Of a DNA stretch of 64,000 bases, positions 2,505 through 58,275 are shown one piece after another (the first letter of the stretch is position 1; every line of letters begins with the position of its first letter). The notes under the pieces are model-generated. The model worked only from the letters and a program-made list of their open reading frames with translations, had not been told where the DNA came from and did not search any database. This DNA is from Emiliania huxleyi CCMP1516. Taxonomy: Eukaryota > Haptophyta > Isochrysidales > Noelaerhabdaceae. The translations under genes and the position numbers were made by a program. Location: positions 45,036 through 109,035 of the forward strand of contig NW_005199735.1 of the NCBI RefSeq assembly GCF_000372725.1, in the 5' to 3' direction.

Positions 2505-3647
2505 ATGACACCGATGAGCTGTCCTGTCGTTCCGAAAGAGCCCAAGCCCTCGACTGCGTACATGAAGAAGCTCAAGGACGAATACAAGGCCAAGAAGGCC
2601 CTAGAGAAGGCCGCGGAGGAGCCCGAGCCCGAGCCCGAGCCCGAGGTCAAGCCACCCGAGCAGAAGAAATCCTGGGGCGGCTGCTGCAAGTGCTTTTTGA
2701 AGCCCGCCGAGGCCTCCAGGATGGTCGTGCACACTATGCAGACCATCGCGGACGGCAAGACGAAGGAGGACGTCGAAGCGGCTCACGAGCAGATGGCGTC
2801 CAAGGCAGCGGCCGCCGGCTTCACCAGCTGGCGCCGCCGCCGCCTCTCCGCCGCCGCCCTCGCCGCCGCCGCCCTCGCGCCACTGCGCCACCCCTCGCGT
2901 GCCTCGCTTGCCCCTTGCCCAGCCCGCCCCCCCACCCTTCCTCCCAGGAGCGCGGCGTGGGACGCGGACGGCACCACCGCCGTCGTGACCGAGGTCTTCG
3001 ACTCGCCCGACATGTACTTTGCCTTCATGGACGAGCTCGACTTCGAGACGGTCTCTGCCAGCATCAAGTTCGAGGCGCCAAAGCTGCTCTGCACCGAGGA
3101 GCAGGCCGCGGAGATGAGCGACCTGGTCAAGAACTTTGCGATGGAGACCTTCACCGTGGCAACGGCGGTCAGCGTCCCGTCCGACTGGGACGAGGCCCCA
3201 AAGATGATCGTGTGCGCCCTCCAATCCATCGCGGACGGCAAGACGAAGGCGGACGTCGACGCGGCACACGAGCACGTCGCGTCCAAGGCAAAGGCCGCCG
3301 GCTTCACCAAGTGAGCCCGCCGCTCCGCACGCCTCTCGCCCCACGTCCTGCCCGGCGCGTCTCGCCCCTCGGACTCCCTCACGCGCCTCTCTCGCCTCCC
3401 GCCTCGCAGCTGGAGCGCCGCGTGGGACGCGGACGGCACGACCGCCCTCGTGATCGAAATCTTCGAAGAGCCCGAGATGTACACGCAGTTCGTCGGCGGC
3501 CTCGACATGGCGATGGTCACCGGGAGCATCAAGTCCGACGACGCGAAGCTGGTCTCCACGGCGGAGGAGGCCGCGGAGATGGGCGAACTGATCGCGTCCT
3601 TTGGGATGAAGCCCTACACGTTGACCTGCTACGGCTTTGCTGCCTAG
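2505..3647 (+). CDS. Two-module cytosolic protein of unknown family, three exons
   Basis: Exons 2505-2830, 2948-3310 and 3410-3647. After a charged N-terminus with an EPEPEPEPE stretch and a CCKC motif, the product contains two copies of a module of about 115 residues: MVVHTMQTIADGKTKEDV / MIVCALQSIADGKTKADV, then SAAWDADGTT, then a D/E-rich block (VFDSPDMYFAFM / IFEEPEMYTQFV) and CTEEQAAEMSDL / STAEEAAEMGEL. Both introns fall at the same codon of the module (FTS/N-WSAAWDADG), so the module was duplicated with its intron. Intron 1 is GC-AG (CTG|GCGCC), intron 2 is GT-AG (AA|GTGAGC). The module size and pattern could fit a small alpha+beta-barrel domain, but I do not recognise the family. Confidence 0.8.
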
Positions 3648-4544: not shown

Positions 4545-4660
4545 TGTGTTAGTGCCAGTGCGCGCCAGTCCCGTGCCCAAAGAAAAGAAAGAAAACAGAC
4601 AACAAGGGAGGGATGGGAGGACGGCACGCCGCCACCACACAGGGATTTTAAGGAGAGGTG
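4545..4660 (-). repeat. Mosaic dispersed repeat, family A, copy 3
   Basis: Contains TGTTAGTGCCAGTGCGCGCC + AGTCCCGTGCCC (shared with 37537-37572), AAAGAAAGAAAACAGACAAC and GGGAGGGATGGGAGGACGGC, the last two being the reverse complement of 1110-1190. Confidence 0.75.
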
Positions 4661-4685: not shown

Positions 4686-5516
4686 CTAGGGAGTCTGCCT
4701 CTTCCTATCTCTCTTCGCAGTCTCTCGCTGCTTCTCGCTGCAACCTTCATGCCACCTCGCGGTCGTCCCACTCTCGTCGTTCTCTCCCTTGTCATTTCCT
4801 CCTCTGTCGCGTCGTTCTCTTCTGCCTCGTCCTGTGACGCCGCCGCCTGCCGGTCCCTTGTTCTCGCGGTTTCTTTTGCCTTTCGGCGCAACTCCGTCCT
4901 CCTCGCGGCGTATCAGCTCCCCTCGCGCAAGGACCACATTTCTGACTCCCACTCCGATCATTTGCCTCCAGGTCATGTTGTTGCTCAGGTCCACTCTCTC
5001 TTCGAACACTCGTGCCTCTACGGATGATGCCGGCGCTGGGGTCCCCTTCGGATGCATCGTGACATCTGACAACTGGATTTCCACTGGTTCGTCCTCCTCG
5101 GAGTCATCTTCCCCGTCCTCCTTCCGCTCGGCTCTTCGCTCGGTACGTTCGGTGTGGCTCACCCTCCATGCCGTGAACAGGCGCTTTATCCACCCTATAT
5201 TCTTCTCTCGTTCCTCTGCCCGTGCCTTGGTCTTGTCGTTGTTTCGCACCCATGTCTGTATGGCCATCGAGGCTGCCTTCCCCACTACCTGTAGTTCACT
5301 CGTCACCTCTCCCGCGAGCTCCCTTCTCTTTCTTTCGGGTATGGAGTCCGTGAGTGCGGGTCGCGTGCAGGCAATCCCGTGCCCAGTGTTGTGCGAGCGT
5401 TGTAAAATTCTTTCTCGCACCGGCCGAGAGATCTCGCCGCCGTCCCAGGCGGCGAAGAGCTCGTCCACCTCCACTGTCGTCACCACGCGGCGCTTCACTC
5501 GCTTCGACTTTGACAT
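4686..5516 (-). CDS. Charged hypothetical protein carrying a piece of family-A repeat
   Basis: Open for about 276 codons from the ATG at 5516. The product is Lys/Arg/Glu-rich (SKSKRVKRRVVTTVEVDELF at the N-terminus, an EDGEDDSEEDEP acidic run in the middle, Arg/Gly-rich tail), suggesting a nuclear or RNA-associated role, but no domain is recognised. Positions 5375-5425 are a block of the family-A repeat (GTGCGAGAAAGAATTTTACA on this strand); it begins with a good GTGCGAG donor and could be an intron. Its ATG lies in the same CATG palindrome as the ATG of the divergent membrane-protein gene at 5515, so both starts cannot easily be right. Confidence 0.35.
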   Translation of the reverse strand: MSKSKRVKRRVVTTVEVDELFAAWDGGEISRPVRERILQRSHNTGHGIACTRPALTDSIPERKRRELAGEVTSELQVVGKAASMAIQTWVRNNDKTKARAEEREKNIGWIKRLFTAWRVSHTERTERRAERKEDGEDDSEEDEPVEIQLSDVTMHPKGTPAPASSVEARVFEERVDLSNNMTWRQMIGVGVRNVVLARGELIRREEDGVAPKGKRNRENKGPAGGGVTGRGRRERRDRGGNDKGENDESGTTARWHEGCSEKQRETAKRDRKRQTP

Positions 5517-8500
5517 GGACACGAGCAGCGGCGGCCGCGCTGAAGAGCGGGCGCCGGACTACTCGTACTCCATCAGCGACGGCCTCCTCACCTTCCTCTC
5601 GGTCATGGCGCCGACGCTCGTGCTCAACCTCGCCTTCTCAGTGGCCGGCTTCGGCGATGTGACCTACCTCTTCCTCGAAGACCTCAAATACCCATGGTAC
5701 GCTGCAGCCGACGCCTGCCTGCTCCTCTGCCTCCTCCTCTGGATGCTAGACGCTCATCGATGGACGAAATCGTATATGGTGGTGGTCCGGCGGCTGTGCA
5801 TCGCGCTGGCGGTGCTGCTCGCCGCCGTCGCCTGCTCGCTGGCGACGCGCGTCTACCCATTCGCACCGCTGCAGCTCGGCGTCTCCACGCCACGGCGTCT
5901 ACTGCAGCAGGGCCGGCTGACTCCAGTCACGGTCGTTGAGTCTCTGGCCCTCAGGCTTTTACGCGATCCCCGCCTCCGCCTTTGCCGTCCGGCGCGGCCT
6001 CGTCACCCGCCCGCCCGCTCCAGCGTACATGCGCGGCCTGAGCAGGCGCGTCGCCGCCGCCGCTCGGACCTGAGACGCCCGATGCAGATGAGTTGCTGCT
6101 CTCTCCCCCTTTCCTCCCTGCCCCTCTCGCTGTCTGGTGTTAATGGACCCCCTTCCTCTCCCTCGCCACCGTCACCGTCACCATCCCCGTCGCTACCCCG
6201 GCTAGTCGCCGACCACACCCACAAAGAACCCTGCACATACGAAGATCTAGAGATGCGTCTGCAGGAGTGTCGCCGTCGCCGCCGCGCTGAGCCTGACCTA
6301 CTTTGCGCTGTGGGTGGCGGTGCTTCCCCCACCGGCGTCGCGGCTGCGCACCGGGTGGGACGAGGACTGGCTTGCGCCTTCGCGTCTTCTTTTTTTGCCG
6401 AGGGGGTTCTTTTTGTTGTAGGTGGGACGAGGACTGGTTTGCGCCTTCGCCGTCTTCTTTTTTTGGGAAGGGTTTCTTTTTGTCGTAGGTGGGACGAGGA
6501 GTGGCTCAACTTGTGGGGTGGGCCGGTCAAGGCGTACTGGGAGGGCAGGCGGGGACGAGGGCCTTATGAACATGACTCTAATCATCATCGTGTTTGTGGT
6601 CAGTTCCTCTTGCTCTTGAATATGCAGGCCGGGTTGGCGAGCCCTTACCTTACCGCCTCATGAACAACGGATGAATGAGTAAGTGATCATTGAGCAGGCT
6701 GGGCTGCGAGCCGTTCAACGCGACCGCCTCGTACAACGACATCGACTGCTACGACGCCGCCTTCTGCTGGTTCTTCTTCCCGCTGCTGGTCGGGATCTCG
6801 CTCGTCGTCTTTGCCGTGGTGTGCCGCGAGACCCACAACACGCACACGAGTCGAGACCCACAACAGCACACGCACACGGATGAGACTCCTCCTGTGCGCA
6901 TGACCAGGTGTGCCGCTTCCTCGCGCGCGTGCTCGCCTCCGAGACCAACGCAGAGGCCGACGCCGCCGCCGTCAAGCTGTTTGTCGGCGCCATCTCCGTC
7001 GCCGGGCTCGGCATGTGCTCACTGGTACAGCTCGTTCGGACTGTGATTGGTGTGGCTGTGCAGGCGCCATCTCCGTCGCCGGGCTCGGCATGTACGTCGC
7101 CGCCTCCATCGCCGGCGCGGGGGAGACGGAGTGCGCTTGAGTACTACACCAGCTCCATCTTATGGCTGTGGCTTCTCCTCACAGGCGCGGGGATGGGCCT
7201 CTCGCACATCGTCTCGGTGGCGATGCTCAACCTGGTCGCCGCCGCGCTCCTCCTCGTCGGAGGCACGCTGGGCTGGGAGACGTTCGCAAGAGCGATGGCG
7301 GAGGCGGCGTGGGTGCAGCGCGGTCTGCGGTACATCGAGAGCGGGTACGAGTGGCGCGTCGCTCTCGCCAGTCCTTCGCTTGCTCTCCACACCTCCGGCT
7401 GTGAACAGGTACGAGTGGTGCGTCGCCCTCGTCATCTGTGTCGGAGTGCTGCCGCTGCTTGCGTACGCGCTGCTGCTCGCTGGCAAGCAGGCGACTCGGT
7501 GGCTGCGCGGCTCGAGCAAGGCGTCCCGCGGCGGCATCGTCACCGCAGAGACGCATGAGCGGTTGACGAAGCTGTCAGTGCACTGGGGCTCCGTCTGCAG
7601 CAAGGTCGCCCTCCTCTGCCAGGGCTACCTCTGCATGTCGGTCGTGGTCGCCAAGTTTGTGGTCGTGTTTCTCTGCTGGCTGAGCGCGGTGCTCGCCGGG
7701 CTCCCCCTCGGCCTCGTGGTCCTCCTCTTCCTGCTGCAGGCGAGGCACTTCCTAGACCCTTCCTAGACACTCCCGAGACACTCCCGAGACACTCCCGAGA
7801 CACTCCCTGGAAGGGCTCCTCTCTCTGCCGCAGGGCATCGTCCTGTTCCTCGTCCCGGTCATCCCCGGCATCCCCGTCTATGTGTGCTCCGGCGTGCTGC
7901 TCACTGGCGCGGTGATGAGCGAGGAGGAGCTTGCAGACCCCACCCCGCACGCGCCGCCCTCGTACTGGCTCGGCGTCGCCCTCGCCGTGTCGGTCGCACG
8001 CCCCCGCTCAAGACAGTGCCATCACGCGGACCGCCATCCTCACTCGCGTTGTTCTGGCTCCCCCAAACTAGGTCGCCTCCGCCCTCGCCGCCTCCCCCCC
8101 CCCTCGCCGCCTGCACCTCCTTTGCCGGATCCCCCTTCCCCCGCCTCCTCCTCCTCCCTTGCCGACCTCTCCCTCGCCGCCCCAACCAGGTCGCTTGCCT
8201 GCTCAAGTTTTGCGCCATCGTGCTGCAGCAGCAGGCCATCGGCCGGTGGACGGGACCTCGGCTATCTCTCGGCTGTCTCTCGGCTGTCTCTCGGCTGTCT
8301 CTCGGCTATCTCTCGGCTGTCTCTCGGCTGTCTCTCGGCTATCTCTCGGCTGTCTCTCGGCTATCTCTCGGCTGTCTCTCGGCTGTCTCTCGGCTATCTC
8401 TCGGCTATCTCTCGGCTATCTCTTGGCTATCTCTCGGCTATCTCTCGGCTATCTCTTGGCTATCTCTCGGCTATCTCTCGGCCATCTCTTGGCTATCTCT

Positions 8501-10384
8501 CGGCTATCTCTCGGCTATCTCTTGGCAGGTCATCGGCCGGTGGATGGGGTCTCGCATCGAGATCCGCGCCGCATGCCAGACAAACTCGTCCTTCATCCGC
8601 GCGGCGAGGCATAGCCGAGACATCGCCGAGGCATCGCCGAGGCATCGCCGAGGCATCGCCGAGATACAGCCGAGACACAGCCGCGCATGACAAGCTCGGC
8701 CCTCTCCGTGCGGGCGCGTCCCGTCCGTCTCATATCATTGTTGGCATCCTCTCTATGATTCATGACTCTTCTGATTCCCCCACGCTGCCAGGCGCGGTTC
8801 GTGCTCACGCAGCGCGGCTGCACCTTTGGCAAGACAGTCGTGCTCTGTGGAGGACCGGACTGGCCGACCTCCGTCCTGACAGGCACCTCCGACAATCTCG
8901 GTCCTATCTCGGCCACTCTCGGCGGTATCCGGCCGATCCCGGCCACTCGCGGCCAATTGATCAAATACCTCACCACACGCGCCCGTCTCGCTCCCTCTCT
9001 CTGCCTGCCCGTCTCCGGCCTCTCCCGCCCCAAGACGCGAGCCGCGTCTCTTCACAGCCGTCTCTTCACAGCCGTGGCCGTGAGCAGGCATCCTCGGCCT
9101 CTCCTGCCCCAAGATGCTCTTCGGCTCCATCCCGGTCGTCCTTCTCATCCTCCCCTCCACCGCCATGGGCAGCGCGCTCATCATGGCCAACCAGCCTCTC
9201 GTTACCGGGACATGTCCGCGACATGTCCAGGACGCGTCGGCGACATGTCCCGTAGGCCAACCGGCCTGGCTGGGACCTGGCCGCTTCGGCGATGGACGAT
9301 GGCGTGTGATCGCAACCTGACGTGCTGATGACTGACATCACCATAACTAATGACTAGGCGATGACGATGGCGATGCTCGCGACCCAGATGGGCGCGTCGG
9401 TCGGGTTCGTCGCCGTCATCGAACACGCAGCAACCGCCTACGAGGCGCAGAGTATCCAAGAGTAGCCGAGGCAAGGAGAGGCTAGCCGAGGCTAGCCGAG
9501 CGCGCCGAGGCGGAGATACGCCGCGCTGTCCCATCGAGGACGTGTGCAGGTTCAGGTCGCCCGATGTGACGCGCGATGGTCCGAGGTCAGGCGGAGATCG
9601 CCGCGCTGCCCATCGACGAGGAGGTCGCCGCGCTGGACGAGGCGCGCGCGCTCTACGCGACCTGTCAGTCAGTCTGTCTGTCAGTGTGACACACCTCCTA
9701 GCACGGAGGACGGGCCCACACACACACACACGCTGCACACGATTGGCTTGGGAGCCGACACGAGGCACACTGTCACCGGCCGTATCACGGGGTCCGGGCT
9801 GGGTCCGGGCTGCTGGGAGAGCGACCGCGCCCTAGGAGTCCCTCCCCTCGCACCGGAAGGAGATCACATCTGCTGCCGCTCTCGCCAGGCACGCGCGCTC
9901 TACGCGACCGCTTGGCGCAACGCCTCCGACTGGCGCGACGCCTCTTACCCGGCTGCTGCACGCGTGCTCGCCGTGACCGCCGCCGCTGCGGGCCTCGTCG
10001 GCTGCCGTCTCTCCGCCCTGCCCGGCGCCTCCCGCGAGCCGTCTCGGCGTCCTCCCCGTAGGCCTCGTCGGCTGCCACCTCTCCGTCCTCGCGGCCTGCT
10101 TCGCGCGCGTGACCGTGGCGGACCGCTTCGACGCCCCTCCGATCAGCGGCAACCCGCTCAACGTCGTGCGCGGCGGCGCGGGCTACGCGCTGCTCGCGTC
10201 GTTTCTGGGCGGCCTGCTGCTGCTGCTGCTGCATCGCGCGTGGCTCGGCCGGCGGACGCGCGCGCGGCTCGTCGTCGAGGAGGCGGCGGTGGCGCGCAGA
10301 GGGCCCGACAAGGCGATGGCGCCGAAGGGAGCGGCGGAGGCGCCGGTGCTGGAGCAAGGGAAGGTGTGGGGCGTCCACTACTGA
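5515..10384 (+). CDS. Large polytopic membrane protein, many exons, possible VTT/TVP38-like core
   Basis: Spliced gene whose exons together give at least a dozen hydrophobic segments. Landmarks: first exon from MDTSSGGRAEE at 5515 with DGLLTFLSVMAPTLVLNLAF; ALWVAVLPPPASRLRTG then WDEEWLNLWGG (6300-6545); FCWFFFPLLVGISLVVFAVV (about 6760); LFVGAISVAGLGM (6976); MGLSHIVSVAMLNLVAAALL (about 7192); VALVICVGVLPLLAYALLLA (about 7424); IVLFLVPVIPGIPVYVCSGV (about 7838); QQ|VIGRWMGSR (8234/8530); CGGPDWPTSVLTG|ILGLSC (8850/9092); LVGCHLSVLAACFARV (10067); stop at 10382-10384. The PVIPGIPVY loop and the GPDWPTS motif followed by PKMLFGSIPVVLLILP recall SNARE-associated Golgi/VTT (TVP38/TMEM64, DedA-like) proteins, but the whole is much longer, so this is tentative. 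Introns are mostly GC-AG and often begin with a copy of the next exon's start. Exon joins were checked by frame, not by transcript. Confidence 0.7.
6354..6504 (+). repeat. 67-bp tandem unit: exon start plus intron, three exon-start copies
   Basis: GGTGGGACGAGGACTGG occurs at 6354, 6421 and 6488 (third copy GAG for GAC), exactly 67 bp apart; between them lie two related pyrimidine-rich spacers ending GTTGTAG and GTCGTAG. The protein frame needs only one copy (RTG|WDEEWLN), so splicing probably joins 6354 directly to 6489. Confidence 0.85.
7744..7806 (+). repeat. Short intronic tandem repeat
   Basis: Units CCTTCCTAGAC and CACTCCCGAGA repeated about five times, inside an intron of the membrane-protein gene. 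The same kind of unit, reverse-complemented (AGGAAGTGTCT), forms an array at 40360-40402 in CBP80; because CBP80 is on the minus strand the sense orientation is the same. Confidence 0.7.
8255..8527 (+). repeat. Intronic minisatellite, CTATCTCTCGG/CTGTCTCTCGG units
   Basis: About 25 units of a 10-bp motif (CTCTCGGCTR) fill an intron of the membrane-protein gene between the two copies of CATCGGCCGGTGGAYGGG. A related array with the same sense orientation fills a CBP80 intron (41838-41938, minus strand). Confidence 0.95.
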
Positions 10385-10848: not shown

Positions 10849-12929
10849 TCAACACGACTGAACCGAATACAGCGTGAAGGGCACATCATTCCCCTCGATG
10901 AGCGTGAATCGGATGAGCACCGCGGCCGGTGCCCCCGAAGTCACCCCCGAAGCGGGTAGGCGCAACCGCAGCACGCTCGAGCTGTGGACAGACACGTTGT
11001 GTGCCCACTTGCGGTGGAAGGTGGCGCCCGAATCACTACCCTCTGAGGCCTGGTGAGAGGCGGGAAGGGGGAGGTATGTGCCGTCGCCCACACGTCGCAC
11101 CACCTCGACCTTCACCGAGGCGGCGCCGCTGTAGCTGCGCAAGTACCCAACGGTGAGCGAGCCCGTCTCCACCGTCACGTTGGCGACGAAGTTGGCGCCG
11201 CCCCTGCGCGCGACGTACCCGAGCTTGTGCCCGCCTATTCGCGGCTAATCGCGGCTAATCCTGACAGACCCCGCTCACCGCTGGAGCTGCAAACTTGTGC
11301 GCGCCCGTGCTGTATATTGACGCGCCTCGCTTCACCTTGTCGAAGATGTACGCCCCATCCCCGCGCTTGTGCTGGGCCAGCCACTCCCACCCCTCGGCGT
11401 GCACGACGGCCTCCATGCCCGCGCCTCGCGAGTTTGTAAAGTCGATCAGCGCGAGGGGAGTCGTCATGCGCTCGAGCACCAGCCTATATGGCGACGAACG
11501 CGCGGTTAATATGGCGTGCACAGTGTCACGCTCACGGGAGCCTAGCCACGAGGGGTGCGTGCACTGCTACAAGTATGCCATCTTTGGGCTACCAGCCCCT
11601 CAATGGACGGGTCGAGCGGAGGCAGCGCGAGGCTGGCCCGCCAGCGCGCCTCTCTCTGCGCGGCACTGTGTCGCCAGAGCGCCTCTCCCTCCGCGTGCAG
11701 CACGGCAACGCAGAAGAAGGCGGTGAGCAGGTGGCCCCACCGCGAGAGGTGCACCACGTCGACGAGCACCTGCGGCCTCGCGAGTGGGTGGCTTCGGTTC
11801 CTCTCGTCGAGCGCCGCGAGCGGCAGCGTCGAGTGGCAAGCTGGGACGCCGAGGCGCTCGAGCACGGGCCGATGCTCGTTCCACGCACCGAGCACCTGCG
11901 GTGTTTCGTCCGTATCAGTAATGTCTCTGTGATCGAGCGGCGCAATTGGTAAAAACCTGCGACGACGTGAGCTTGTTGAACCACGCGTCCTCCACGTACA
12001 GCAGCGCCTGGTCAAAGCTAGACATATGAAGAGACAGAGGCGTGAGCAGCATCTTCCACTCACAGGTGCGCCGTGGTGGGGCGGAGCTGTAGGATGCGCC
12101 GCGCCAGCGCCTCCGTCTCGACTTCGATTTCTCGAAGTCGGGCCTGCGACCGCCGGTCGAGGACGTGTCCGTGCTGAAGCTCGGCCTTCGTTGGGCGGCC
12201 CTTGAGCTCGTCCTCGACGAAGCTGTTGAAATCGTTGGCGCCTGAGAATACGGGAATAGACAACCGTTCACCCACTTCCCTCCATGAGCAGCATCTCTCA
12301 CAGGCGCCTGTGTCGACGACTACCAGGTTCGGAGGAGACGCCTTGTGCTTGGCACCGAGCAGCCCGGCAAACTGCGCGTTGAAGCCCGAGGTGCCCATCC
12401 CATTAATGCACTGGTTGTCCAGCGTGTGACCCGTCGCGCAGCAGCGCTGGCTCCGCGCATTGAGATAGCGGATCAGCGCCGCGCTCCAAGTGCCATTGAT
12501 ACCGGCGGGTTTCCCAAGGTTCGAGTGCCGTCGTCCAAAGACTCCGCCGACGTTTCCAGCGCCACATGCATTGCTCCCACCAATGACAAGCACACGCACG
12601 CAGCAGTTGCGCTCATCACCGAGGCGCTCAAACAGCCTTAGCAGTCGAGCGCCCGCTTGCCCGCCTCTCACCGCGTGGACGGCGTGGAGCATCTGCCTCG
12701 TGACGGCGCGCATTCCCTCGGCCGGCTGGGAGTCGTGCGCATCGTAAGGCGCATGGCTAAAGAAGGACCTGGCGTCGGCCAGTGTCCCAAGCACAGAAGA
12801 TGGAGAGCGCTTGTGCGCCTGTGCATGACCACCGGTGCCGGTGCCGGTGGTGCGGCCTGTGACTGCTGCCACAGCGTCGTCAGCGGCCGTTGACCCGCTT
12901 TTCAACAGCAACGCGAGGAGGAGCCGCAT
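10849..12929 (-). CDS. SGNH/GDSL-hydrolase-like protein, secretory
   Basis: Five or six exons. ATG at 12929 with a hydrophobic start (MRLLLALLLKSGSTA), probably a signal peptide. Exon 1 ends at 12308; its VLVIGGSNACGAGNVGG is the SGNH block I (GxSN in place of GDS) and NLVVVDTG|ANDFNSF, created by splicing 12308 to 12241, is the GxND block III. Later joins: TTAHL|FDQALLYVEDAW, TSSQ|VLGAWNEHRPVLERLG, PSIEG|LVLERMTTPLALIDF, IYSTG|GHKLGYVARRGGANF, ending ...FTLYSVQSC with the stop at 10849. Three of the introns are GC-AG with a 6-8 nt repeat of the exon start (CAGGCGCC, GGCTGGT, GGCG.GCACAAG). Likely an ER or extracellular esterase/acyltransferase-like enzyme; the block V His was not identified with certainty. 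Confidence 0.75.
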
Positions 12930-13219: not shown

Positions 13220-14529
13220 CTAAGCGAGCGGAGACAAGGGTCGATGGTCTTGGCGTCGAGGAATGCGAATGGGCAAAGCCCCCCGTACACGCCTGCAGCT
13301 ACTGCTCGAGGTGCATCTCCTCGAGTGCGCGGACGCGCTCGGCGATGCCGCGCGCTGCCGGGCGGGCATGTCGCGCGCAAACTGCTGCGCGTTGGTGCGC
13401 ACGCGTGCTTGCAGGCAGAGCACGTCTTGCGCGAGCTCGTCGAGCCGCATCTCCACCGCTGCGAGGGCGCCGCATGCCCTCCCGCTGCGAACGGGAGGCC
13501 CGCGTGCGCGCTTGGCCGCGCCGCAGGTTGACGCGCTCGCGCAGTCGGCGCTGCAGCCGCATCCGTTGGCTCTGCCCGCAGCGCCGACGCAGCGCCGGCC
13601 GCTGGACGCCGAGGAAGAGCCACTCGATGAGCCAGCTGCTGCCGAGGTGCCCGGCGGCATTGCCGATGGCGGCGCAGCCGGGTAGTGCTGCATCACCCAC
13701 AGCGCCTGTACCGTCGCCTGGGTGTCGCTGCGGTCCCAGCGCGTCCCGTAGCAGTTCGTGCTGGGCGGCTTCTGCAGGAAGGCCTGCCACATGCGCACGC
13801 CGTTGGCCAGGTCGCTGATCGTCCTTGCACTTGGCTGGCCACCAGCATCCACCATCAGCTTGAACGCGCTGAGACAGAACTTGCATCGCGCGCCATTCAT
13901 CGTGCCTCGGCTGCCTCTCTCAGCATTTGGGGCACACTTTGGCAATCATGCTGAATGAAGTGCTCGCCCTTGAGGGCGCTCCTAGCAATCCTCGGATCTT
14001 GGGTACGATTGTGAGCGCCGCCGCTCATAGTCCTACAAGATGTAGGATTGCGAGCGCTACTGCTCGCAATCGGAGGCATGTTGCTAGGATTGCGAGCAAG
14101 CAGTGCTGCTCGCAATCCTAGACTTTGCTCGGATTGCGAGCGCGCTGGTACAACTGTAGTAGTCGTAGGCGTCACCAGTCACCTTGGGAGCGGAGCTGCT
14201 CTTAGTCCTAGAAGATGTAGGATTGCGAGCGTGGGTGCTAGCAATCGCACAGAGATGCTACGATTGCGAGGTGGTACGAAAGGTAACCTCACCTCAATCA
14301 GATCCCGTGTGAGACCCTCATACCTGGTCTCGTACTCTGTCCAGAGCATACGTCTCATACGCAGCCATGTAGATTTGTCGCTGTAATTCCTCTTCCATAA
14401 ACCGCCCATTTCTTCTTCTGTCAGATCGCAAAGTTCTTTACTGACGTCCGCGAAGAAGTCCTGCGCCGACGCGTCCTCAGCTCTCACATGCCAAGCGCTG
14501 CTCGCGAGCAGGAAAGCTGCGCTGCTCAC
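13220..14529 (-). CDS. Hypothetical protein with hairpin-repeat-filled intron (tentative join)
   Basis: Two open segments can be joined in frame. The upstream one (14529-14292) has a hydrophobic leader (SSAAFLLASSAWHVRAEDAS) and ...MLWTEYETRYEGLTRDLIE, followed by a good GAG|GTGAGG donor. The downstream one (from about 13918, acceptor GCTGAG) reads MNGARCKFCLSAFKLMVDAG, then a low-complexity Ser/Gly stretch and a short coiled coil (VEMRLDELAQDVLCLQARV), stop at 13220. Between them is the hairpin repeat at 13960-14280. No in-frame ATG is present at the upstream end, so the first exon or start is unresolved. No family recognised. Confidence 0.45.
13960..14280. repeat. Hairpin-rich dispersed repeat, family C, copy 1
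   Basis: Built of short inverted units such as GGATTGCGAGC / GCTCGCAATCC and AGTCCTAGAAGATGTAGGAT, each able to fold into small hairpins. The stretch GACTTTGCTCGGATTGCGAG to GATGCTACGATTGCGAGG is closely shared with 22870-23060, and the right part with 24090-24200 in reverse. Here it appears to lie inside an intron of a minus-strand gene. Confidence 0.85.
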
Positions 14530-16158: not shown

Positions 16159-18110
16159 TCAGTCGAACAGGAAGGGTACGGTCACGCTGCTGTTGCCGCC
16201 GCTCGGTGCGAAGCGCGCGCCGCCGAGGTGCGTCTCCACCGCGTTGAGCACGGCCGGCCGCGCGTCGTCCGCCTCCGCCCCGCGCTGCAGCTGGCTCGGG
16301 TCGACGACGAGCGTGTCCGCGAGGTGGCGGAGGGCGGCGACGGTGCCTGTTCACACCCGCGCGCCGCCGTGAAGATCTTAGCTCCCGTCGGCGAGGGGCG
16401 GGGGGGGGGGGGGGGGGACGCGCCGTCGGCGCCAACCTCGAGCCGCACAGCGAGCAGCCCCGTGACGGCGGGCGGGGAGATCTCGGCGTAGAGGGCCTAG
16501 TCTCGTGAGGGAGAGGAGCAGTCTCAACGCGAGGGCGGGCGGACCTCGGCGGATCTCGGCGGATCTCGGCGGATCTCCGTGCCGGGCGCCTCTAGCGGTG
16601 CGGCGAGCCCCTCCCCCACCTCTTCCTCTGTGAGAGCGCCTAAACGTGCCTCGTCGACTCCTCAGTGGCCAGTCCAGCCAGTCTCCCTGGCTCCTCCTCC
16701 TCAACGCGAGATCCCTCGGAGAACGGGGCCGGCTCCGTGAACCAGCCGTGCAGAACCAGCCGGCCCCCCCTCGGGTCCCGCTCCCCCTCGACCCTCGACA
16801 CGCCTACCTCTCGGCTCAGCTCGGCTCAGCTCGGCCGATCTGGGGTCTCGCCCTCCCTCGGCCCTTTCCACACCGTGCGGCAACCGCGCGTCGAAGACGG
16901 TCAGCCGGTCGAACAGCGGCTGAACCTGTGCATACACCCGCGCGCGCCGCTGTGAAGAGACGCCGTCCACACCGCCGAACGGCTGGCTCAACCAGCGGCT
17001 CCGCCTCCGCCACGAGGTCACCTCGCTAATCTCGGCTAATCTCGTGTAATCTCGGGTAATCTCCGCCTCCGCCACGAGGTCACCTCGCTCGAGCCCGACC
17101 GACGAGTCGAAGCCGCGCCTGCTCACCGCCACAGGCGCGTGAAGAGGCGCTCCGCTCACCGCTGGAGAGAGGGAAGGAGAGAGGCGAGCGTCCAAGCCGC
17201 GCGCGCCAGTAGTCGAGCGTCTCCGGCCGCAGCAGCGAGGTCTCGCCGCCTGGAAATGGCTCCCGGCGACTCACGTGTTGGTCGAGACGGCCGCAGCAGC
17301 GAGGTCTCGCACGCCGCTGAAGCGGCGCTCTTCCCACCGCGTGAGCGAGAGCACGAAGGCGAAGGGTCCCTGGGGGGGTGTTGGAGGGGATAGTCACGGG
17401 GGATAGGGGATAGTCACGGGGGATAGTCACGGGACACACACACCGGGGGAGAGAGGCCGCTTCAGAGAGGCGGCTTCAGAGACGGTGGAGGCGAGGACGC
17501 GTGGTGTCGAGGACGTGCTGAGGGCCGCAGTGCCCGTGTCTGGCAATCTTGTGTCGAGGCAGTCTCGAGGACGTGTCGAGGCAGTCTCGAGGACGTGTCG
17601 AGGCGGCGTCTTGGCTGGGCGCAGTGTGTTCTGGCTTCTGGCAGTGCGTCTGGCAGTGTCTGGCAGCGTGGTCCACGCTGTGGCCTGCGGCACGTCTGCG
17701 TGCAGCCGCTGCTCGCATCCGTCCACATAGAAGGAGAGCCACGGCGGGGAGATGGCGCGGCAGCCCAGCTCGCGCTGACCGAACGCCGTCAGCGCGTCGG
17801 TCAGCGCCGCAAAGGCGTCCTCATCAAAGTAGGAGGCAGCCTGCGTCCGATGCAGCGTGTACTGCGACGGCACGTGCCAGTAGTCCCAGCAGAAGCGCAT
17901 CGGGTGGGCCTGCCGTGGCTCTTCGAACCGCTCATCAAAGACAGTGCGGAGTGTCTCGGCCGTTTCTCCCAGAAAGCCATCGACCGTCCGCAGGTGCTCC
18001 GGGCCAGGATCCTCGTACTGGGCGAGTGGTTTCGGTGATCGCAAGCGGGCGACACACGAGACGGCGCCGCCGCGTGGCGAGGACAGGCCGGGCGAGGCCA
18101 GCACGAGCAT
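16159..18110 (-). CDS. 2-oxoglutarate-Fe(II) oxygenase (prolyl 4-hydroxylase-like)
   Basis: About eight exons. ATG at 18110 (MLVLASPGLSSPR). Exon 1 ends at 17685 in SFYVDGCEQRLHADVPQ, giving the HxD iron ligands; splicing to 17369 gives GPFAFVLSLTRWEERRFSG, then GETSLLRPETLDYWRARGFD (17250), LERGDLVAEAEPL, VQPLFDRLTVFDARLPHGV with the distal His of the facial triad, then GERDPRGGRLVLHGWFTEP, LLAVRLEVGADG and TVAALRHLADTLVVDP, ending VTVPFLFD, stop 16159. Nearly every intron is GC-AG or begins with a copy of the following exon start; two such copies are 27 and 29 nt long. The fold and ligands support a hydroxylase; the substrate is not predictable. Final exon boundaries between 16480 and 16700 are not fully resolved. 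Confidence 0.8.
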
Positions 18111-19388: not shown

Positions 19389-22283
19389 ATGAGCGGGGCC
19401 GCGCCGAGGCTCAACCCTCTCGCCACGGGGGACACGCAGCTGGCCCACACCCTTGTCCCCGGGCAGATGGTGGACATTGCGGGCGGGCGGGTCATGGAGG
19501 TGGTGGATGTGCCGGATCGGCTGCTCGCGCCGCTGCTCGGCGAGGGCGGAGCCACGCTAGAGGAGATTCGGCGCGTCTCGGGCGCGAGCATCGAGATGAT
19601 CGAGATGGTTAAGCTCAAGCTGGGCGACGCGGAGCGGCGCGCAATCGTCACGGGAGTCCGCACCATTGTCGCGCACGCCGTCAAGATGATTGCGGACGTC
19701 CTCGCCAACCCGACGGTGATGGTTGCGCAGCCGGTGCAGGCGACTGTCGAGACGCGCGTGATCGAGATCCCCTTCAACAAGGCGGGGCTCATCATCGGCC
19801 GCGCGGGCGAGACGATCCGCGACATTATGAGCAAGTCGGGCGCACACGTGCAAGTGTCGCGCGAAGCGACGGGCGAGGACGAGGAGACGCGGACAGTGAC
19901 AATCCAGGGGACCGCCGAGCAGATAGAGTCGGCAGCGGCGCACGTCAACTCGAAGCTGAACCCGGACGACTGGCAGCTCGCCGTCAAGGCGCAAAACGCG
20001 ATGGTGCGCTTGCGCCCTGCACCCTTGCACCCCCTCGCCCCTCCCCCCCGCGCAGCCTCGCCAGCCCCTCGCTCTCTTTCGCGGCGCATTCGTCCGACCG
20101 TCTCAGCCCTGCTGTGCACGCAGCGCGCCGGCTTCTCCGGCCCGCTTCCGGCGCCGGCGTCGCTCCCGATGCATTCCGTCGGCGCGGCGCCCCCGCCCCC
20201 GCCAGGCAGGGCCCCTGCTCCGTCGGCGGCGGCGGCGGCGGCGGACCCGAAGGCACGCGAGGACCTAGATGCGGGCCTGGATGCGGGCCTGGATGCGGGC
20301 CTGGATGCGGGCCTGGATGCGGGCTTGGATGCAGAGTTGGGGCCGTGCACCCCCACCTTGCACACGAGGCGGCACGAGCTCGGCTGTTCAGCCGCGTCGC
20401 AGTCCTGCTCCCTGTAGCCCCGGCCCTTGCAATCACGCGATGCGCCCGAGCAGCACGGCACGAGACAGAGCTGCGGCCCGTCCCGCCCTCAGCTGCCCGC
20501 GCTCACACAGAGGCACAACCGCGGGCCCACGATCACGCACACGAGAGTCGAGAGCAGACAGACAGCGACGACAGCCGGACGTCGCACTGGGTCCCTGGGC
20601 GAACGTGATAGCGGGCTATATGCTCACACACCCCTCTCCTACCCCAGGTCCGCGAGACGGCGCTTCGGTCTCTCGCTGCGATGGCGAGGGCCATTCTTGG
20701 AGATGACGGGCGGGAGACCCGCAAGGCCGACGCCAAGGCCGACGCCAAGGCCCACGGCACGAATGCCGGGGCCGGCGGCGCAGACGGCAAGAGCGAGGAG
20801 GGAGCGGGCGAGGCGGGCGAGGAGGGCGAGGGCGAGGGCGAGGGCGAAAGCGAGGCCGTCTTGGCTGAGCTGCAGCTGTCGATGTCGGTCGGTGGCGTCA
20901 TGTCGCTCCTCGACGACGGTCCGGTGGCGCAGCTGCAGGCGACCCTCCCCCCTGGCTTCCCCGTGGCTACCCCCAGGCTTCCCCGAGGCTACCCCGAGGC
21001 TAACCCCAGATTCCCCGGGCACCCTAAGGGTGGTCGGCGGAGCGCAGAACTGCTTCCCTGAGCCTCCTCTGGGCCTCCCTTGGGCCTTCTCAGACCTCCT
21101 CTGACCCTCCCCTGGACTCTCTCTCGACCCTCTCCGAACCTTCCACGAACCTTCCACGAACCTTCCGCAGGCGAGTGGCGTCGAGCTGCACCTCGCAAAG
21201 CTTCCCTCCCGCGGCCAGCGCGCCGTCAAGCTGAGCGGCGAGGTGTGGGCACCGCCACTGCCCTCGCTGCACCCGCTTCCAGATAGCCCTGGCCGCTCTC
21301 TTGCTGGCATGCCTCCGACGCTGGCCAGCCCCCTCCCCTGGCCTCCCTCTGCCTGGCGCCCCCCCCCTTCCCCCCCCCTCCCAACCCCCCCCCCCACCCC
21401 GACCCCGCCCCCCCGACCCCGCCCGACACCCGACCCGCCCAGGCGACTGCCGTCGAGACGGTCGCGGCGTTCCTGCGCGCTTGCGACGCGCGTGCGGCGC
21501 GGCGGCAGAAGCGGCGGCGGCCGCTCGCCCCGCAAGACGCCGCGCGGCGCTACTACGACCGGTACTACGAGGAGGGCGGGATCGTGCTCCTAGATGCGGA
21601 GGACATATCTCCCCATATTTCCCCAGATCTCCCCCAGATATCGAGGCCTAGAAGCGGAACACTGTGCATTCTTGTACTCCAACTCGCGCTCGAGAGGACA
21701 ACCAATCCGCGGGAGTCCGCCGGAGTCCGCCGTATTCACTGTATCCCGTGTGTACGCGCGATGCTCCGAATACACGGCACTGAGGGACCGTCCTCCCGCC
21801 CTGACTTCGGTGTGTCTCATGACGCAGGATCGCGTACCGGCCGCCGCAGCGGCTCTGGCACGAGCCGGACGCCGAGGCTGAGCGCTTCAAGTCGTGGGCG
21901 GCATACTACCGCGAGCAGGCTAGCGGAGGGGGGCGGGGCTCTGGTGGCGGCAACTGCAGACGCACCTCACCTCGGCCTCTGTCCGCACCCCCTCTCAGGC
22001 CGCCGCCGCCGAGGAGCAGCAGCGCGAGGCGGAGGAGGTGCCGGCTGTGCGGCGCACCAAGAAGAAGAGCTGCGGCAACAGCGGCCCGAGTGGCGGGGCC
22101 TCGGCGCCGCCCGCAGAGGCGGGGCCGGCGCCGATGCCGCAGGCCAAGCCGGAGCAGGGAGGGGGCGAGGCGGAGCACGCACTGCCGGAGGGCTGGCAGA
22201 AGGGGGTGACGCCCGACGGGCGCGACTACTTTTACAACGTGGGCACCGGCGCGACGCAGTGGATCCGGCCCAACGACTACTAG
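19389..22283 (+). CDS. KH- and WW-domain RNA-binding protein
   Basis: Exons: 19389-20003, 20648-20938, 21171-21242, 21443 to about 21604, 21828-21918 and 21999-22283. The first exon has a degenerate KH domain (VDVPDRLLAPLLGEGGATL) and a canonical one (ETRVIEIPFNKAGLIIGRAG with the GxxG loop, then TIRDIMSKSGAHVQVSRE). The middle is charged and Glu/Gly-rich. The last exon ends in a WW domain: LPEGWQKGVTPDGRDYFYNV then TQWIRPNDY (two W, YF, P). KH plus WW suggests pre-mRNA processing, with the WW binding Pro-rich splicing partners. Donors at 20938 (CAG|GCGACC) and 21918 (CAG|GCTAGC) are GC; the exon 4/5 junction was not settled. Intron 1 contains a 12-bp tandem array. Confidence 0.85.
20266..20336 (+). 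repeat. 12-bp tandem array GATGCGGGCCTG
   Basis: Six near-perfect units inside intron 1 of the KH/WW gene. The array keeps the reading frame open but a good acceptor (CCCAG|GTCCGC at 20647) gives a clear continuation of the protein, so it is treated as intronic. Confidence 0.8.
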
Positions 22284-39030: not shown

Positions 39031-42000
39031 TCACAGCTGCCAAGCCGAAACCTCGCGGAGCCGCTCAAAGACGCTGCGTTGCACGGCCGCGGCCAACTCA
39101 TCCACCTCCACCACCGCCTCGACGCTCGAAAGCGAGTACTCAGCGATGTGGCGCCGGCAGAGGCCGACAGCGTGGCCGATCGCCGCGCTCCACCACGCGG
39201 TCTCCACCGGCGCGCCGGCCGCCGCCGCCGCCTTTGCGTGCTCGTCGAACGCGCCGCAGACGCCGGCGAAGAAGTTTGCAAAGAGCTCCTTCTTCTCGCG
39301 CCGCGCGCGCTCCGAGATGGCCCTCTTGGTTTCGAGGCGCTGCCTACTCGCGCGCGCGCAAGCGTCAAGGAGCGCTGCTGTCGCGCAAGTCGCGCGTGCG
39401 ACAGAGGGGTGTGTGCGCCCCGCCGCGCTGGTGCTGCCCTCCTCCTCGCCGCCGATCATCTCGACATACTCGGCGTACTTGTCCTCCTCGGCCTTGAGCT
39501 CGCCCTCGACGCTCTTGAAGTGCGAGAGCGACCGCTCGAAGAGCAAGTGCAACCCCTCCCACGTCGACGGCCACGCGAGTCGCCTCCGCTCAGGCGCGGA
39601 GCAGAGCCAGCCAACCAGCGCCTGCGGGTCGACGAGCTCGCGCCTGTGTCGGCGACGGGACGCGGCTCGGCGTGGCGGGGGAGGAGGGCACGCCCGCGGC
39701 GGGCGAATCGGCGCGCCGGACGAGCTTGGAGAGGACGAGCCACGTCATGTGCGGCGAGGCTCGCCTGTGTCCGCAAGAGGGGCGGGCGCGTCTCTCGAGC
39801 AAACCAGCTGCGAAGGGGGGCATGGCGCGTGTGTGGCACGGCGCGCGCCAGTAGGCTGCCACCGCGCCGACGACTCGCGCGCGCGCAGGCCCGTCCTGCG
39901 CGGCGGCGGCGACGAGCCAGTTGAACTTGTCGAGGAGGCGCTCGAGGTGGGACACGCTCTTGGCGCCCGCGTCGAGCAGCGAGTGCACGACCTACGGGGA
40001 GATGCGGGGAGATGCGCGGAGAGAGGGGGAGAGATGTCGCGTCGAGCAGCGAGTGCGCGACCAGAGTCTGCAGCTCGGCCGGCGGCACCTCCCGCTGCAG
40101 CCAATCGAGCACGTCCGCCTGCGGGCGCGCCGTCGCGTCATCTCCCCGTATCTCCCCGCATCTCCCCGCATCTCCCCGTCTCTGCCCAGAGGCGCGTCGT
40201 GGCGGCATATGGAGGCGACCCCCCCCACACACACACAAGCTTGGCGCGTCCGCCTGCTCTGCCCGCGACCGGAGCCTGCCCATATCTCCCCATATCTCCC
40301 CATATCTCCCCACATCTCCCCGCCTGCTCCGCGCGTGACCGGAGCCGGTTGAGGCTAGGACGTGTCTAGGAAGTGTCTAGGAAGTGTCTAGGAAGTGTCT
40401 AGCCTGCTCTTCCCGTGACCGGAGCCTGCTCTCCCCATATCTCCCCATATCTCCCCGCCTGCTCTGCCCGTGACCGGAGCCGGTTGAGGAGCGAGACGGA
40501 CTTGGCCTGCATCGAGCCGGGCTCCGCCACCGCCGACGGGTCGACGGCGCCCCAAGCGGCGGCGCCTGCGCCCCCACGCGGCTGCAAATGAGTCGCGGCG
40601 GCGGAGGCTGGCCAGAGGGCTGAGCGGGCGAAGGCGACCGGCGGGCTGCGGCGGCAGGTGGGAGACGAAGGGCGCGGGCAGCCCCTTTTGGAGGCGCTCG
40701 AGGTAGGCGAGCCTCAGGCACTTGTCCAGAATGTGGCGCACAAACGCGTCGTGCGGCAGCTCTGCGCGGGGCGAGCCGGCCGCCGCCGCATCGTCCGCCG
40801 CGTCCGCCGCGTCGGCCGCGCCGGCCGCGCCGCCGGCGGACAAGCGCGGCGCCCAGGAGGCCTCGAACGGCTCGAGGTTGAAACCAAAGTGCGAGATGTG
40901 GAACGAAAGCCAGTCGGCGAGCCTGTTCGCGCGGGTGACGCGCTGGCGGCAGCCCGGGCGCGCCTCCAGCGGGGATCGCGAGCTCGGCCAATCTCGGCCA
41001 ATCTCGGCTAATCTCGGCTAATCTCGAGCCGGATCGCGAGCTCGGCGTCGAGGCGGTCGAGCGAGGCGTAGAGCGTGTTGACCGCCCGAACGAGCATGCG
41101 CGGCGCGGGAGTGAGCAGCCGCGAGATGTCGAGCAGCAGACACGCGTAGTACGTCTGGCGGTGCCGCGGCGCCGGCAGCAGCAGCAGCATCGAAAGCAGC
41201 GTCTCCACCTGCGCCAGGCGCGCGTTGCGGACGTGGGGCTGTGCGCCCCCCCCCCCCAAAAAAAAACCAACACACACACACACACACACAACCTCCACCC
41301 CAAGGCAGGCTGTTGTCGCGCCAGCGCCCCCCCCTCCTCTCCCCCCCAAGGGCAGGCTGTTGTCGCACACCAGCGGCTCGCACGCATCGATCGCCAGATT
41401 CTCTGCGAGCCCGTGCAGCAGCTTAGCCGCGTCCTTGTGCGACTCCTCAAACTGCGACACGAGCAGCCACGCGTACTCCTCCATCAGCGTCCGATCCACC
41501 AGGCCAAGCCTGCCGCCGCCGCCGCCGCCGCCGCCGCCGTCGTCGCCCATGGCTGCGTCGCCGTCCCCGTCGGCTGCGGGCTCGGAACAGAGGCGCAGCC
41601 GCCGCAAGCAAGGGTAGGTGCAGCCGCGGGTGTGTGCGGGCACGCTCACAGTTGGCAGAGGCAGCGGCTCGAGCGCCGCCAGCTCCGACGCGAAGGAGCG
41701 CGACGGGGCGAGCAGGAGGGAGGAGCGCCAGTGGTACGAGTCCGAAGAGAGGGCCTACGGGCGTGTGCTCGTCTGTGGTGTTGCGGTGGACGTGCCGGCC
41801 CGCCAGTGGCGGCAGCGCCGCTTCTCGCTCCTAGAGCCGAGAGACACAGCCGAGAGACAGCCGAGACACAGCCAAGAGACAGCCGAGACACAGCCGAGAG
41901 ACAGCCGAGAGACAGCCGAGAGACAGCCGAGAGACAGCCCCGCCCCCGCTGCATGCCCCGGGCTTTCCCGGGCGGCTCGCCTCGACGAGGGCGAAGAGGG

Positions 42001-56061: not shown

Positions 56062-58275
56062 TCACGCCCTGTCCCACTCGTCCTCGGCAGCTGCGGCGGG
56101 CTCAGCGGCCGCAGCCTCGCCCCACCCGTCGTTCTGGCCGGCTGCTGCGGGTGCTGCCTGGCTGCTCTGCGCAACGTCGCTCGGGTGCACGGCGGCCGGG
56201 GGCGGGGGGACCTGCACGCCCGCCGTGTCCGCCACCGTCTGGATGCCGCCCGTGAGCGCGCCGGTGAGCCCGCCGAGGATGGCGTTGGGCAGGGCCACCG
56301 AGAGGCGGCCAACCGCCTTGCCCAGCTCGCTCTTGGGCACGTAGGGCTTCTTCTCGGCGGCGGCGCCGGCCGAGGCGGCGGCCTGCGCTTGCTGCGGCTG
56401 CCCCCAGCCCTGCGCGCCAGCCTGGTAGCCCCCCTGCTGCTGGTACTGCGGGTAGCCCTGCTGGTAGGGCTGCCCGTAGGCCGCGCCGCCGTAGTTGTAC
56501 GTGCCGCTCGGCGACCACTCCGCCTGCTTCTCCGCGGGCGGTGCTGCATCCTCCGCCGCCGCGCCGCCCTTGTGGTTCAGCGCGTCGAAGTGGTCGGCGG
56601 TCTGCGCCGAGAGGGCGCCAAAGTCGGTGGACGGGTCGGTGGTGCCGGAGGCGACGCCGGCGCCCGCGCTGGCAAACTCGATGCCGGTCTGGATGCCCTG
56701 CATCATGTAGTCCTGCCAGCTCGCGCCGTGCGGCGGCTCGGAGGCGGACGCGTCGGCAGAGGCGGGAGAGGCGGCGGCGGGCGAGGCGGAGGTGGCGGAG
56801 GAGGCGCCCGAGCCGAGCGCAGAGGCGAACTGGTTGGCGGCCGCGAGGATGCCGCCGCTGAGCGCGTCGGAGGCTCCGACGGCCGGCGTGGCGGCATCCG
56901 GGGAGGCCTCGGCCTCGGCCTCGGCCACCTCGATCGCCTCGCCCTTGCGGTTCAGCGCGTCAAACTGATCGGCGGTCTCGGCGTTGATGCCGTTGAAGCC
57001 GGTCGACGGGTCAGTAGTGCCGGCGGCAACGCCGGCGCCCGCGCCCGCGTACTGGACGCCGGTGGCGATGCCTTGGTTCATGTAGCTCTGCCACCCGGCG
57101 GTGAGCTTGCGCCGCTGCCCGCCCGCCTCCTTCGCCGGCGCCGCCGCCGCGCCGCCCTTGTGGTTCAGCGCGTCGAAGTGGTCGGCGGTCTGCGCCGAGA
57201 GGGCGCCAAAGTCGGTGGACGGGTCGGTGGTGCCGGAGGCGACGCCGGCGCCCGAGTTGGCAAACTCGATGCCGGTCTGGATGCCCTGCATCATGTAGTC
57301 CTGCCAGCTCGCGCCGTGCGGCGGCTCGGAGGCGGACGCGCCGGCAGAGGCGGGAGAGGCGGCGGCGGGCGAGGCGGAGGTGGCGGAGGAGGCGCCCGAG
57401 CCGAGCGCAGAGGCGAACTGGTTGGCGGCCGCGAGGATGCCGCCGCTGAGCGCGTCGGAGGCTCCGACGGCCGGCGTGGCGGCATCCGGGGAGGCCTCGG
57501 CCTCGGCCTCGGCCACCTCGATCGCCTCGCCCTTGCGGTTCAGCGCGTCAAACTGATCGGCGGTCTCGGCGTTGATGCCGTTGAAGCCGGTCGATGGGTC
57601 AGTAGTGCCGGCGGCAACGCCGGCGCCCGCGCCCGCGTACTGGACGCCGGTGGCGATGCCTTGGTTCATGTAGCTCTGCCACCCGGCGGTGAGCTTGCGC
57701 CGCTGCCCGCCCGCCTCCTTCGCCGGCGCCGCCGCCGCACCGCCCTTGTGGTTCAGCGCGTCGAAGTGGTCGGCGGTCTGCGCCGAGAGGGCGCCAAAGT
57801 CGGTGGACGGGTCGGTGGTGCCGGAGGCGACGCCGGCGCCCGAGTTGGCAAACTCGATGCCGGTCTGGATGCCCTGCATCATGTAGTCCTGCCAGCTCGC
57901 GCCGTGCGGCGGCTCGGAGGCCTTCTCGTCCACGGCGGCGGCGGCTGAGGATGGCGAGGAGGCCGGGGAGCCGAGCGCCGACGTGAGCTGGTTGACTGCC
58001 GTGAGGATGCCGTCGCTGAGCTGGCCGTCGGCGATGATAGCGGGCGACCCGGCCGTCGTCTTGCCGCTGTTCAGGCCATCAAACTTGTCGGCCGTCTCTG
58101 CGTTGAGGTCTTGGAGTAAGACGTCGTCGCCGGAGGCACCGGCGTTGGCGTAGGCGGCGCCCGTCTCGATGCCTTGGTTCATGTACGCCTGCCATCCGGC
58201 GAGAGCGCGAGCGTTGGAGCGCGTGCTGGCCGCCGGGACGGGGGCGCCGTTGACGATGGAGATGAGAGAGAGCAT
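56062..58275 (-). CDS. Secreted repeat protein with 196-residue tandem modules
   Basis: Single open frame, ATG at 58275 with a short hydrophobic leader (MLSLISIVNGAPVPAA). The body alternates two related motifs: GWQAYMNQGIETGAAYANAG / SWQDYMMQGIQTGIEFANSG and ETADQFDALNRKG / QTADHFDALNHKG, separated by TTDPSTDFG/TTDPSTGFNG. A unit of 588 bp (196 codons) is repeated almost perfectly for about 2.3 copies between 56560 and 57921. The C-terminal part is Tyr/Gln/Gly-rich (YGQPYQQGYPQYQQQGGYQA) with a final acidic tail (AAAEDEWDRA). The near-identity of units at third codon positions shows recent duplication or gene conversion. Function unknown; probably extracellular or vesicular. Confidence 0.75.
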   Translation of the reverse strand: MLSLISIVNGAPVPAASTRSNARALAGWQAYMNQGIETGAAYANAGASGDDVLLQDLNAETADKFDGLNSGKTTAGSPAIIADGQLSDGILTAVNQLTSALGSPASSPSSAAAAVDEKASEPPHGASWQDYMMQGIQTGIEFANSGAGVASGTTDPSTDFGALSAQTADHFDALNHKGGAAAAPAKEAGGQRRKLTAGWQSYMNQGIATGVQYAGAGAGVAAGTTDPSTGFNGINAETADQFDALNRKGEAIEVAEAEAEASPDAATPAVGASDALSGGILAAANQFASALGSGASSATSASPAAASPASAGASASEPPHGASWQDYMMQGIQTGIEFANSGAGVASGTTDPSTDFGALSAQTADHFDALNHKGGAAAAPAKEAGGQRRKLTAGWQSYMNQGIATGVQYAGAGAGVAAGTTDPSTGFNGINAETADQFDALNRKGEAIEVAEAEAEASPDAATPAVGASDALSGGILAAANQFASALGSGASSATSASPAAASPASADASASEPPHGASWQDYMMQGIQTGIEFASAGAGVASGTTDPSTDFGALSAQTADHFDALNHKGGAAAEDAAPPAEKQAEWSPSGTYNYGGAAYGQPYQQGYPQYQQQGGYQAGAQGWGQPQQAQAAASAGAAAEKKPYVPKSELGKAVGRLSVALPNAILGGLTGALTGGIQTVADTAGVQVPPPPAAVHPSDVAQSSQAAPAAAGQNDGWGEAAAAEPAAAAEDEWDRA
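56560..57921 (-). repeat. 588-bp coding tandem repeat, about 2.3 copies
   Basis: Units 57148-57735 and 56560-57147, plus a partial unit to 57921. Blocks at 57101 and 57689, and at 56703 and 57291, are identical or nearly so with exact 588-bp spacing. Confidence 0.95.

Follow-up and report, generated by a model that had tools for sequence, protein, structure and literature searches.

Copies of the downstream exon at intron starts in a 64-kb Emiliania huxleyi window suggest intron gain by DNA insertion with long target duplication

In the 64-kb stretch of Emiliania huxleyi DNA analysed here (the window), introns of several genes open with a direct copy of the first bases of the exon that follows. 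They have GY...AG ends and their removal restores the reading frame, as expected of spliceosomal introns, and we propose that they were probably gained by insertion of DNA at exonic G|GY sites with duplication of about 18–31 bp of the target. The clearest case is a block at 6986–7016 on the plus strand that recurs at 7063–7093, where direct comparison found 31 of 31 nucleotides identical, just as the original prediction had reported. The first base of copy 1 is the last base of the upstream exon and the rest forms the 5′ end of the intron, with its GC donor; the insert between the copies (7017–7062) ends in CA, contributing the A of the acceptor AG; and copy 2 begins with the G of that AG, the last intron base, and continues as the start of the next exon. 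The resulting GC-AG intron (6987–7063, junction G|GC...AG|GC) is 77 nt long, not a multiple of three, and its excision leaves one copy. Within it, identity spans 30 nucleotides (plus one shared base) and then stops abruptly, the remaining 47 nt resemble neither flanking exon, and the insert has no convincing relative elsewhere in the 64-kb window.

The gene that carries this block (5515–10384, plus strand) has 17 inferred introns, and removal of these GC/GT-AG introns leaves a single continuous ORF of 807 codons ending in a stop, whose 807-aa product is multi-TM-like, resembling a membrane protein, with no Pfam match. The continuous one-copy ORF, from which we infer splicing itself, bears out the prediction that one copy is intronic and is removed with a GC-AG intron, while the registration of the repeat with the junction agrees with its claim that the duplicated block carries the 5′ splice site. 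A coding tandem repeat was rejected: none of the spacings (77, 134, 64, 247 and 70 nt) is divisible by three, which rules out coding by all copies, and the one-copy ORFs are continuous.

Five further pairs had been listed in this gene and all of them exist. Those at 7344/7408 (24 nt, 2 mismatches), 8232/8526 (29 nt, 4 mismatches), 9640/9887 (23 nt, 1 mismatch) and 9991/10061 (29 nt, 3 mismatches) are as described; the pair 6354/6488, for which no mismatch had been given, holds one within 17 nt, with an exact run of 13, and belongs to a 67-nt tandem that includes a third copy, at 6421. Anchored at the junctions, all on the plus strand, these pairs correspond to a GT-AG intron of two 67-nt units (6355–6488, copies at 6354, 6421 and 6488), a GT-AG intron with a 23-nt repeat of 21 matches (7345–7408), a GC-AG intron with the repeat at its start and an 11-nt minisatellite filling 8257–8526 (8235–8528), and two GC-AG introns with repeats of 21 nt (20 matches; 9642–9888) and 28 nt (25 matches; 9992–10061). 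The repeat at 8235 reaches 4 nt beyond the junction. The earlier list was incomplete, as the introns at 6046, 6819 and 7115 likewise open with shorter or imperfect copies, and further copies lie within introns at 9009 and 9510. The latter belongs to the plus-strand intron 9445–9590, which has a weak copy at 9445 and a closer one at 9510, preceded by GAG; this arrangement suggests stacked events. As would be expected without coding constraint, nonsynonymous changes and a 1-nt indel are found in the intronic copies.

Beyond this gene, the feature was found in a CBP80 gene, a PMS/MutL-type gene, a GDSL-lipase-like gene and one unassigned gene. The CBP80/NCBP1 gene (42756–39031, minus strand) was assigned by homology of its spliced protein: with introns removed, the C-terminal half matches human CBP80 (1h6k, E 8e-19), and the E-value of Pfam MIF4G_like_2 improves from 8.4e-7 with one unspliced ORF as query to 1.2e-24 with the spliced protein. 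A GT-AG intron of this gene (39992–40061, minus strand) has a 24-nt repeat with 23 matches and one mismatch, and the alignment with human CBP80 has a single copy at the site, which confirms, on the strength of protein homology, that one copy is coding. The GC-AG intron at 40276–40480 (minus strand) holds copies at 40480, 40425 and 40345 in addition to the exon start at 40275, with minisatellites inside. Here and in the first gene, the extra intronic copies (6421; 9009; 9510; 40425 and 40345) suggest repeated events or unequal exchange. Another type of local duplication is seen at 41319–41366 (minus strand), where CGACAACAGCCTGCC, located in the 5′ portion of a CBP80 intron, recurs 47 nt further in.

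A third gene, at 16.1–18.1 kb, came to light through a gene finder that was blind to the repeats; it has a GC-AG intron (17250–17314, minus strand) with a repeat of about 27 nt, whose intronic copy has a 1-nt indel. The pair 17089/17027 is an exact 29-nt repeat with an internal GAG|GTGACC. Less extensive matches were obtained for GC-AG introns on the minus strand of the GDSL-lipase-like gene (11235–11304, 12 of 14 starting positions) and the PMS/MutL-type gene (239–384, a 6-nt exact run, with a tandem array inside). The feature was seen in none of the three introns of the ribonucleotide reductase (RNR) small-subunit gene, and the predicted introns of a KH-domain gene were near background. An intron of the RNR gene contains clustered GATGGGCCCATC-type palindromes at 62180–62243.

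We then compared intron starts with next exons over a curated set of 36 frame-checked introns from six genes (37 at first; 39437–39344 was dropped as out of frame). In-register identity between each intron start and its own next exon was 0.78 at position 2, compared with 0.48 expected from permuted pairs, 0.69 against 0.33 at positions 3–5, 0.51 against 0.27 at positions 6–8, 0.52 against 0.28 at positions 9–11 and 0.45 against 0.28 at positions 18–20, and it was at background past about position 28. Upstream of the junction identity was at background, except that positions −8 to −3 weakly exceeded it (0.39 against 0.32, p 0.01). An exact run of at least 5 nt was present in 18 of the 36 introns, where 1.7 would be expected, and one of at least 8 nt in 7, where 0.03 would be expected; in some cases the donor had been picked with the repeat in view, which is allowed for in this test by a null free to choose the best in-frame donor within 30 nt. 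In a test anchored on 32 acceptors, including a few CBP80 ones of less certain annotation, the mean match score of exon starts was 9.83 with their own upstream introns and 4.77 with the regions of other introns (simulated s.d. 0.24), a value reached by 0 of 20,000 draws, and nine introns lay at the extreme end of the null distribution of 934 pairs. Neighbouring introns have sequence in common. The excess over permuted intron/exon pairs, for which a genome-wide scan had been called for, is strong within this 64-kb window, and a chance origin of the copies was rejected.

The repeat-blind gene finder arrived at almost all of the curated acceptors of the gene at 5515–10384, and the signal was kept over the 69 introns that it predicted, with the strong matches again in that gene and CBP80. 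A scan for local direct repeats gave 42 hits in the window, some of them unrelated gene or tandem duplications, compared with none in 10 block-shuffled windows. A test on repeat edges without anchoring showed a modest bias, with an AG bordering copy 2 on its left in 18 of 58 cases and copy 1 in 8 of 58. The duplication was one-sided: a copy of the downstream exon exceeded the null maximum in 10 introns, a copy of the upstream exon in none. In eight clear introns the copy extended 18–30 nt into the intron and only 1–4 nt of exact identity ran leftward past the junction; the duplications in the clear cases measure about 18–31 bp. Four compact introns with a single unit (64–77 nt) have inserts of 41–47 nt.

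The donor dinucleotides followed the same pattern. Pairing donor with next-exon start gave GC/GC in 19 introns, GC/GT in 2, GT/GC in 1 and GT/GT in 7 (p=1.7e-4); among weak-repeat introns alone the association was not significant (p 0.08). GC donors account for 24 of the 36 curated introns in a window of 65% GC, and both this GC-AG majority and the GC content are shared with E. huxleyi at large, where GC donors make up 56–65% in curated and RNA-seq sets and the genome is 65% GC (PMC4028052). That study ascribed the GC donors to genome GC content, whereas here the donor usually equals the first bases of the next exon.

These observations can be joined in a model in which an exonic G|GC or G|GT would open with long staggered ends, or be copied by an equivalent template switch, and would receive a segment of about 40–50 nt in compact cases or a longer one with a 10–11-nt minisatellite. 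About 18–31 bp of the downstream exon would then flank the insert on both sides; the upstream copy would become the 5′ splice site and the intron start, the insert end A(G) would provide the 3′ splice site, and the downstream copy would remain coding, leaving the protein unchanged. Afterwards the intronic copy would decay, and repeat events or unequal exchange may add copies in some introns. The break and insertion step and the direction in time are what we infer here, and the enzyme behind that step may be a break-repair polymerase, a replication template switch or a mobile element; the gradation of copies, whose exact runs range from 30 nt to 5–8 nt, would fit gain followed by decay. In favour of insertion are the decay of identity from position 2 to about position 28, the asymmetry towards the downstream exon and the stacked copies at 9445/9510/9590 and 40480/40425/40345. 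Against it, repeats of 18–31 bp are longer than the 4–12 bp of Daphnia and the 3–9 bp of introners, and the excess at −8 to −3, together with a copy of the upstream exon end within the CBP80 intron 41029–40923, indicates that other local duplications occur. A further difficulty is that the model needs an assumed selection to account for how often the duplication edge falls on the splice junction and for the near absence of the mirror layout.

The minisatellites bear on whether the inserts belong to a mobile family. Arrays of 10–11-nt units are concentrated in introns, which hold 1553 of 2044 array bases while making up about 25% of the window, a count that rests on partly predicted introns. 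The CTCGGCTATCT array at 8257–8526 and the array at 41835–41939, in different genes, are 93–95% alike over 92 nt, and the array at 7741–7807 is near-identical to 40362–40402, again in a different gene; within the window, minisatellite families are the only sequence seen in common between introns, and the acceptor AG is the end point of several arrays. An introner-type element family, with a target duplication made by transposase and its own 3′ splice site, would be a known mechanism with an identical splice-site layout (PMC9860276), and the recurrence of repeat families across genes (8257–8526 and 41835–41939) points to an insert pool that is shared in part. However, the length of the duplication varies, the short inserts share no common sequence and show no likeness to the rest of the window, and terminal inverted repeats are lacking, the intron ends being no more complementary than permuted ones; we consider this origin unlikely.

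Similarly unlikely is the AGGT model, in which exon segments are duplicated in tandem, or copied through replication template switching, and then diverge. Tandem duplication explains 6355–6488, a true 67-nt tandem, and it could explain 17089/17027, whose internal GAG|GTGACC would suit it, but not 6987–7063. There, the expectation of an intron derived over its full length from the flanking exon fails, as 30 identical nucleotides adjoin 47 nt that match neither exon, and the abrupt loss of identity argues against a decayed full-length duplication; moreover, the end of the upstream exon is almost never copied. Aborted cDNA-mediated intron loss, in which a spliced cDNA would convert the junction together with some 30 nt of the exon that follows and rejoin in the old intron, would place copy 1 immediately behind exon 1, its edge coinciding with the junction, as observed, but we regard it as very improbable, as at 9445–9590 the more exon-like copy (9510) lies inside the intron and not beside exon 1, and the 8235 repeat runs 4 nt past the junction. 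Old introns with copies kept alike through gene conversion are just as hard to credit, since the origin of the copies is left unexplained and, in the clear cases, the copies differ by substitutions and indels as decaying ones would.

Other repeats were recorded alongside. The arrays of 10–11-nt units lie at 8257–8526, 41835–41939, 7741–7807, 40355–40402, 40279–40321, 21604–21634 and 17025–17063, and near-identical units in introns of different genes, in both orientations, look like a dispersed minisatellite superfamily; viral contigs held no relatives by protein or minisatellite pattern, and prokaryote genome contigs and phages held none either. A 781-nt stretch recurs with 99% identity 588 nt downstream in a long minus-strand coding gene (56553–57921), and an 84-nt coding segment is present twice (2743–2826 and 3226–3309, 90%) in one plus-strand gene, probably a domain duplication. 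Direct and inverted copies of a CTCGCAATCC-type motif lie upstream of a minus-strand gene (13997–14231). By eye, an intergenic dispersed repeat with TTTTCTTTCTTTCTTT was seen in three copies and both orientations (about 1125–1200, 1535–1590 and 4575–4650), some of them with a GGGATGGGAGGACGGCACGCC-like block. RNA-family (Rfam) and tRNA scans of the window returned nothing.

Extending insertion with target duplication to the lineage, we tentatively suggest that a large share of its introns may stem from one such process, which duplicates about 20–30 bp of exon and often installs a 10–11-nt minisatellite, and that GC-AG prevalence may be a by-product of intron gain because the 5′ splice site copies the first bases of the next exon. 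This link between donor and exon would account for GC-AG introns in a simple way that can be tested. How spliceosomal introns arise is contested, since in most cases their source has been lost; here, young-looking copies of up to 31 nt keep the footprint, alongside a graded series of older ones, which makes the mechanism of gain, its tempo and the donor origin testable with public haptophyte genomes and RNA-seq. Through recombination, such repeats may also allow an intron to be lost exactly, and they are a trap for splice-aware read mapping.

Our literature search, outside which the main E. huxleyi genome paper lay, returned no report of such repeats in haptophytes. New introns of Daphnia pulex carry repeats of 4–12 bp, attributed to the repair of staggered double-strand breaks (PMC4202315), and share with the present introns a direct repeat in which the end of the adjacent exon reappears at the far side of the intron, internal repeats left by recurrent events, and inserts of mostly unidentifiable source; unlike those of Daphnia, the repeats here reach 31 nt and the inserts often contain 10–11-nt minisatellites. 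Introners whose 5′ splice site is drawn from the target site duplication (TSD), for example in Symbiodinium, have TSDs of 3–9 bp (PMC9860276). They likewise take the 3′ splice site from the insert and the 5′ splice site from the duplicated target, leaving the mRNA unchanged, whereas their families share sequence and the introns here have variable duplications of 18–31 bp, no common insert and no inverted ends. An introner family of the haptophyte Chrysochromulina has 4-bp TSDs and the reverse layout (PMC9860276). AGGT tandem genomic duplication (PMC3443670) also draws splice sites from duplicated exonic sequence; here, unlike in that system, the duplicate is one-sided and parted by an unrelated insert. 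The introns here depart from the known layouts in the length of the repeat, its prevalence, the absence of a common insert and the minisatellite content.
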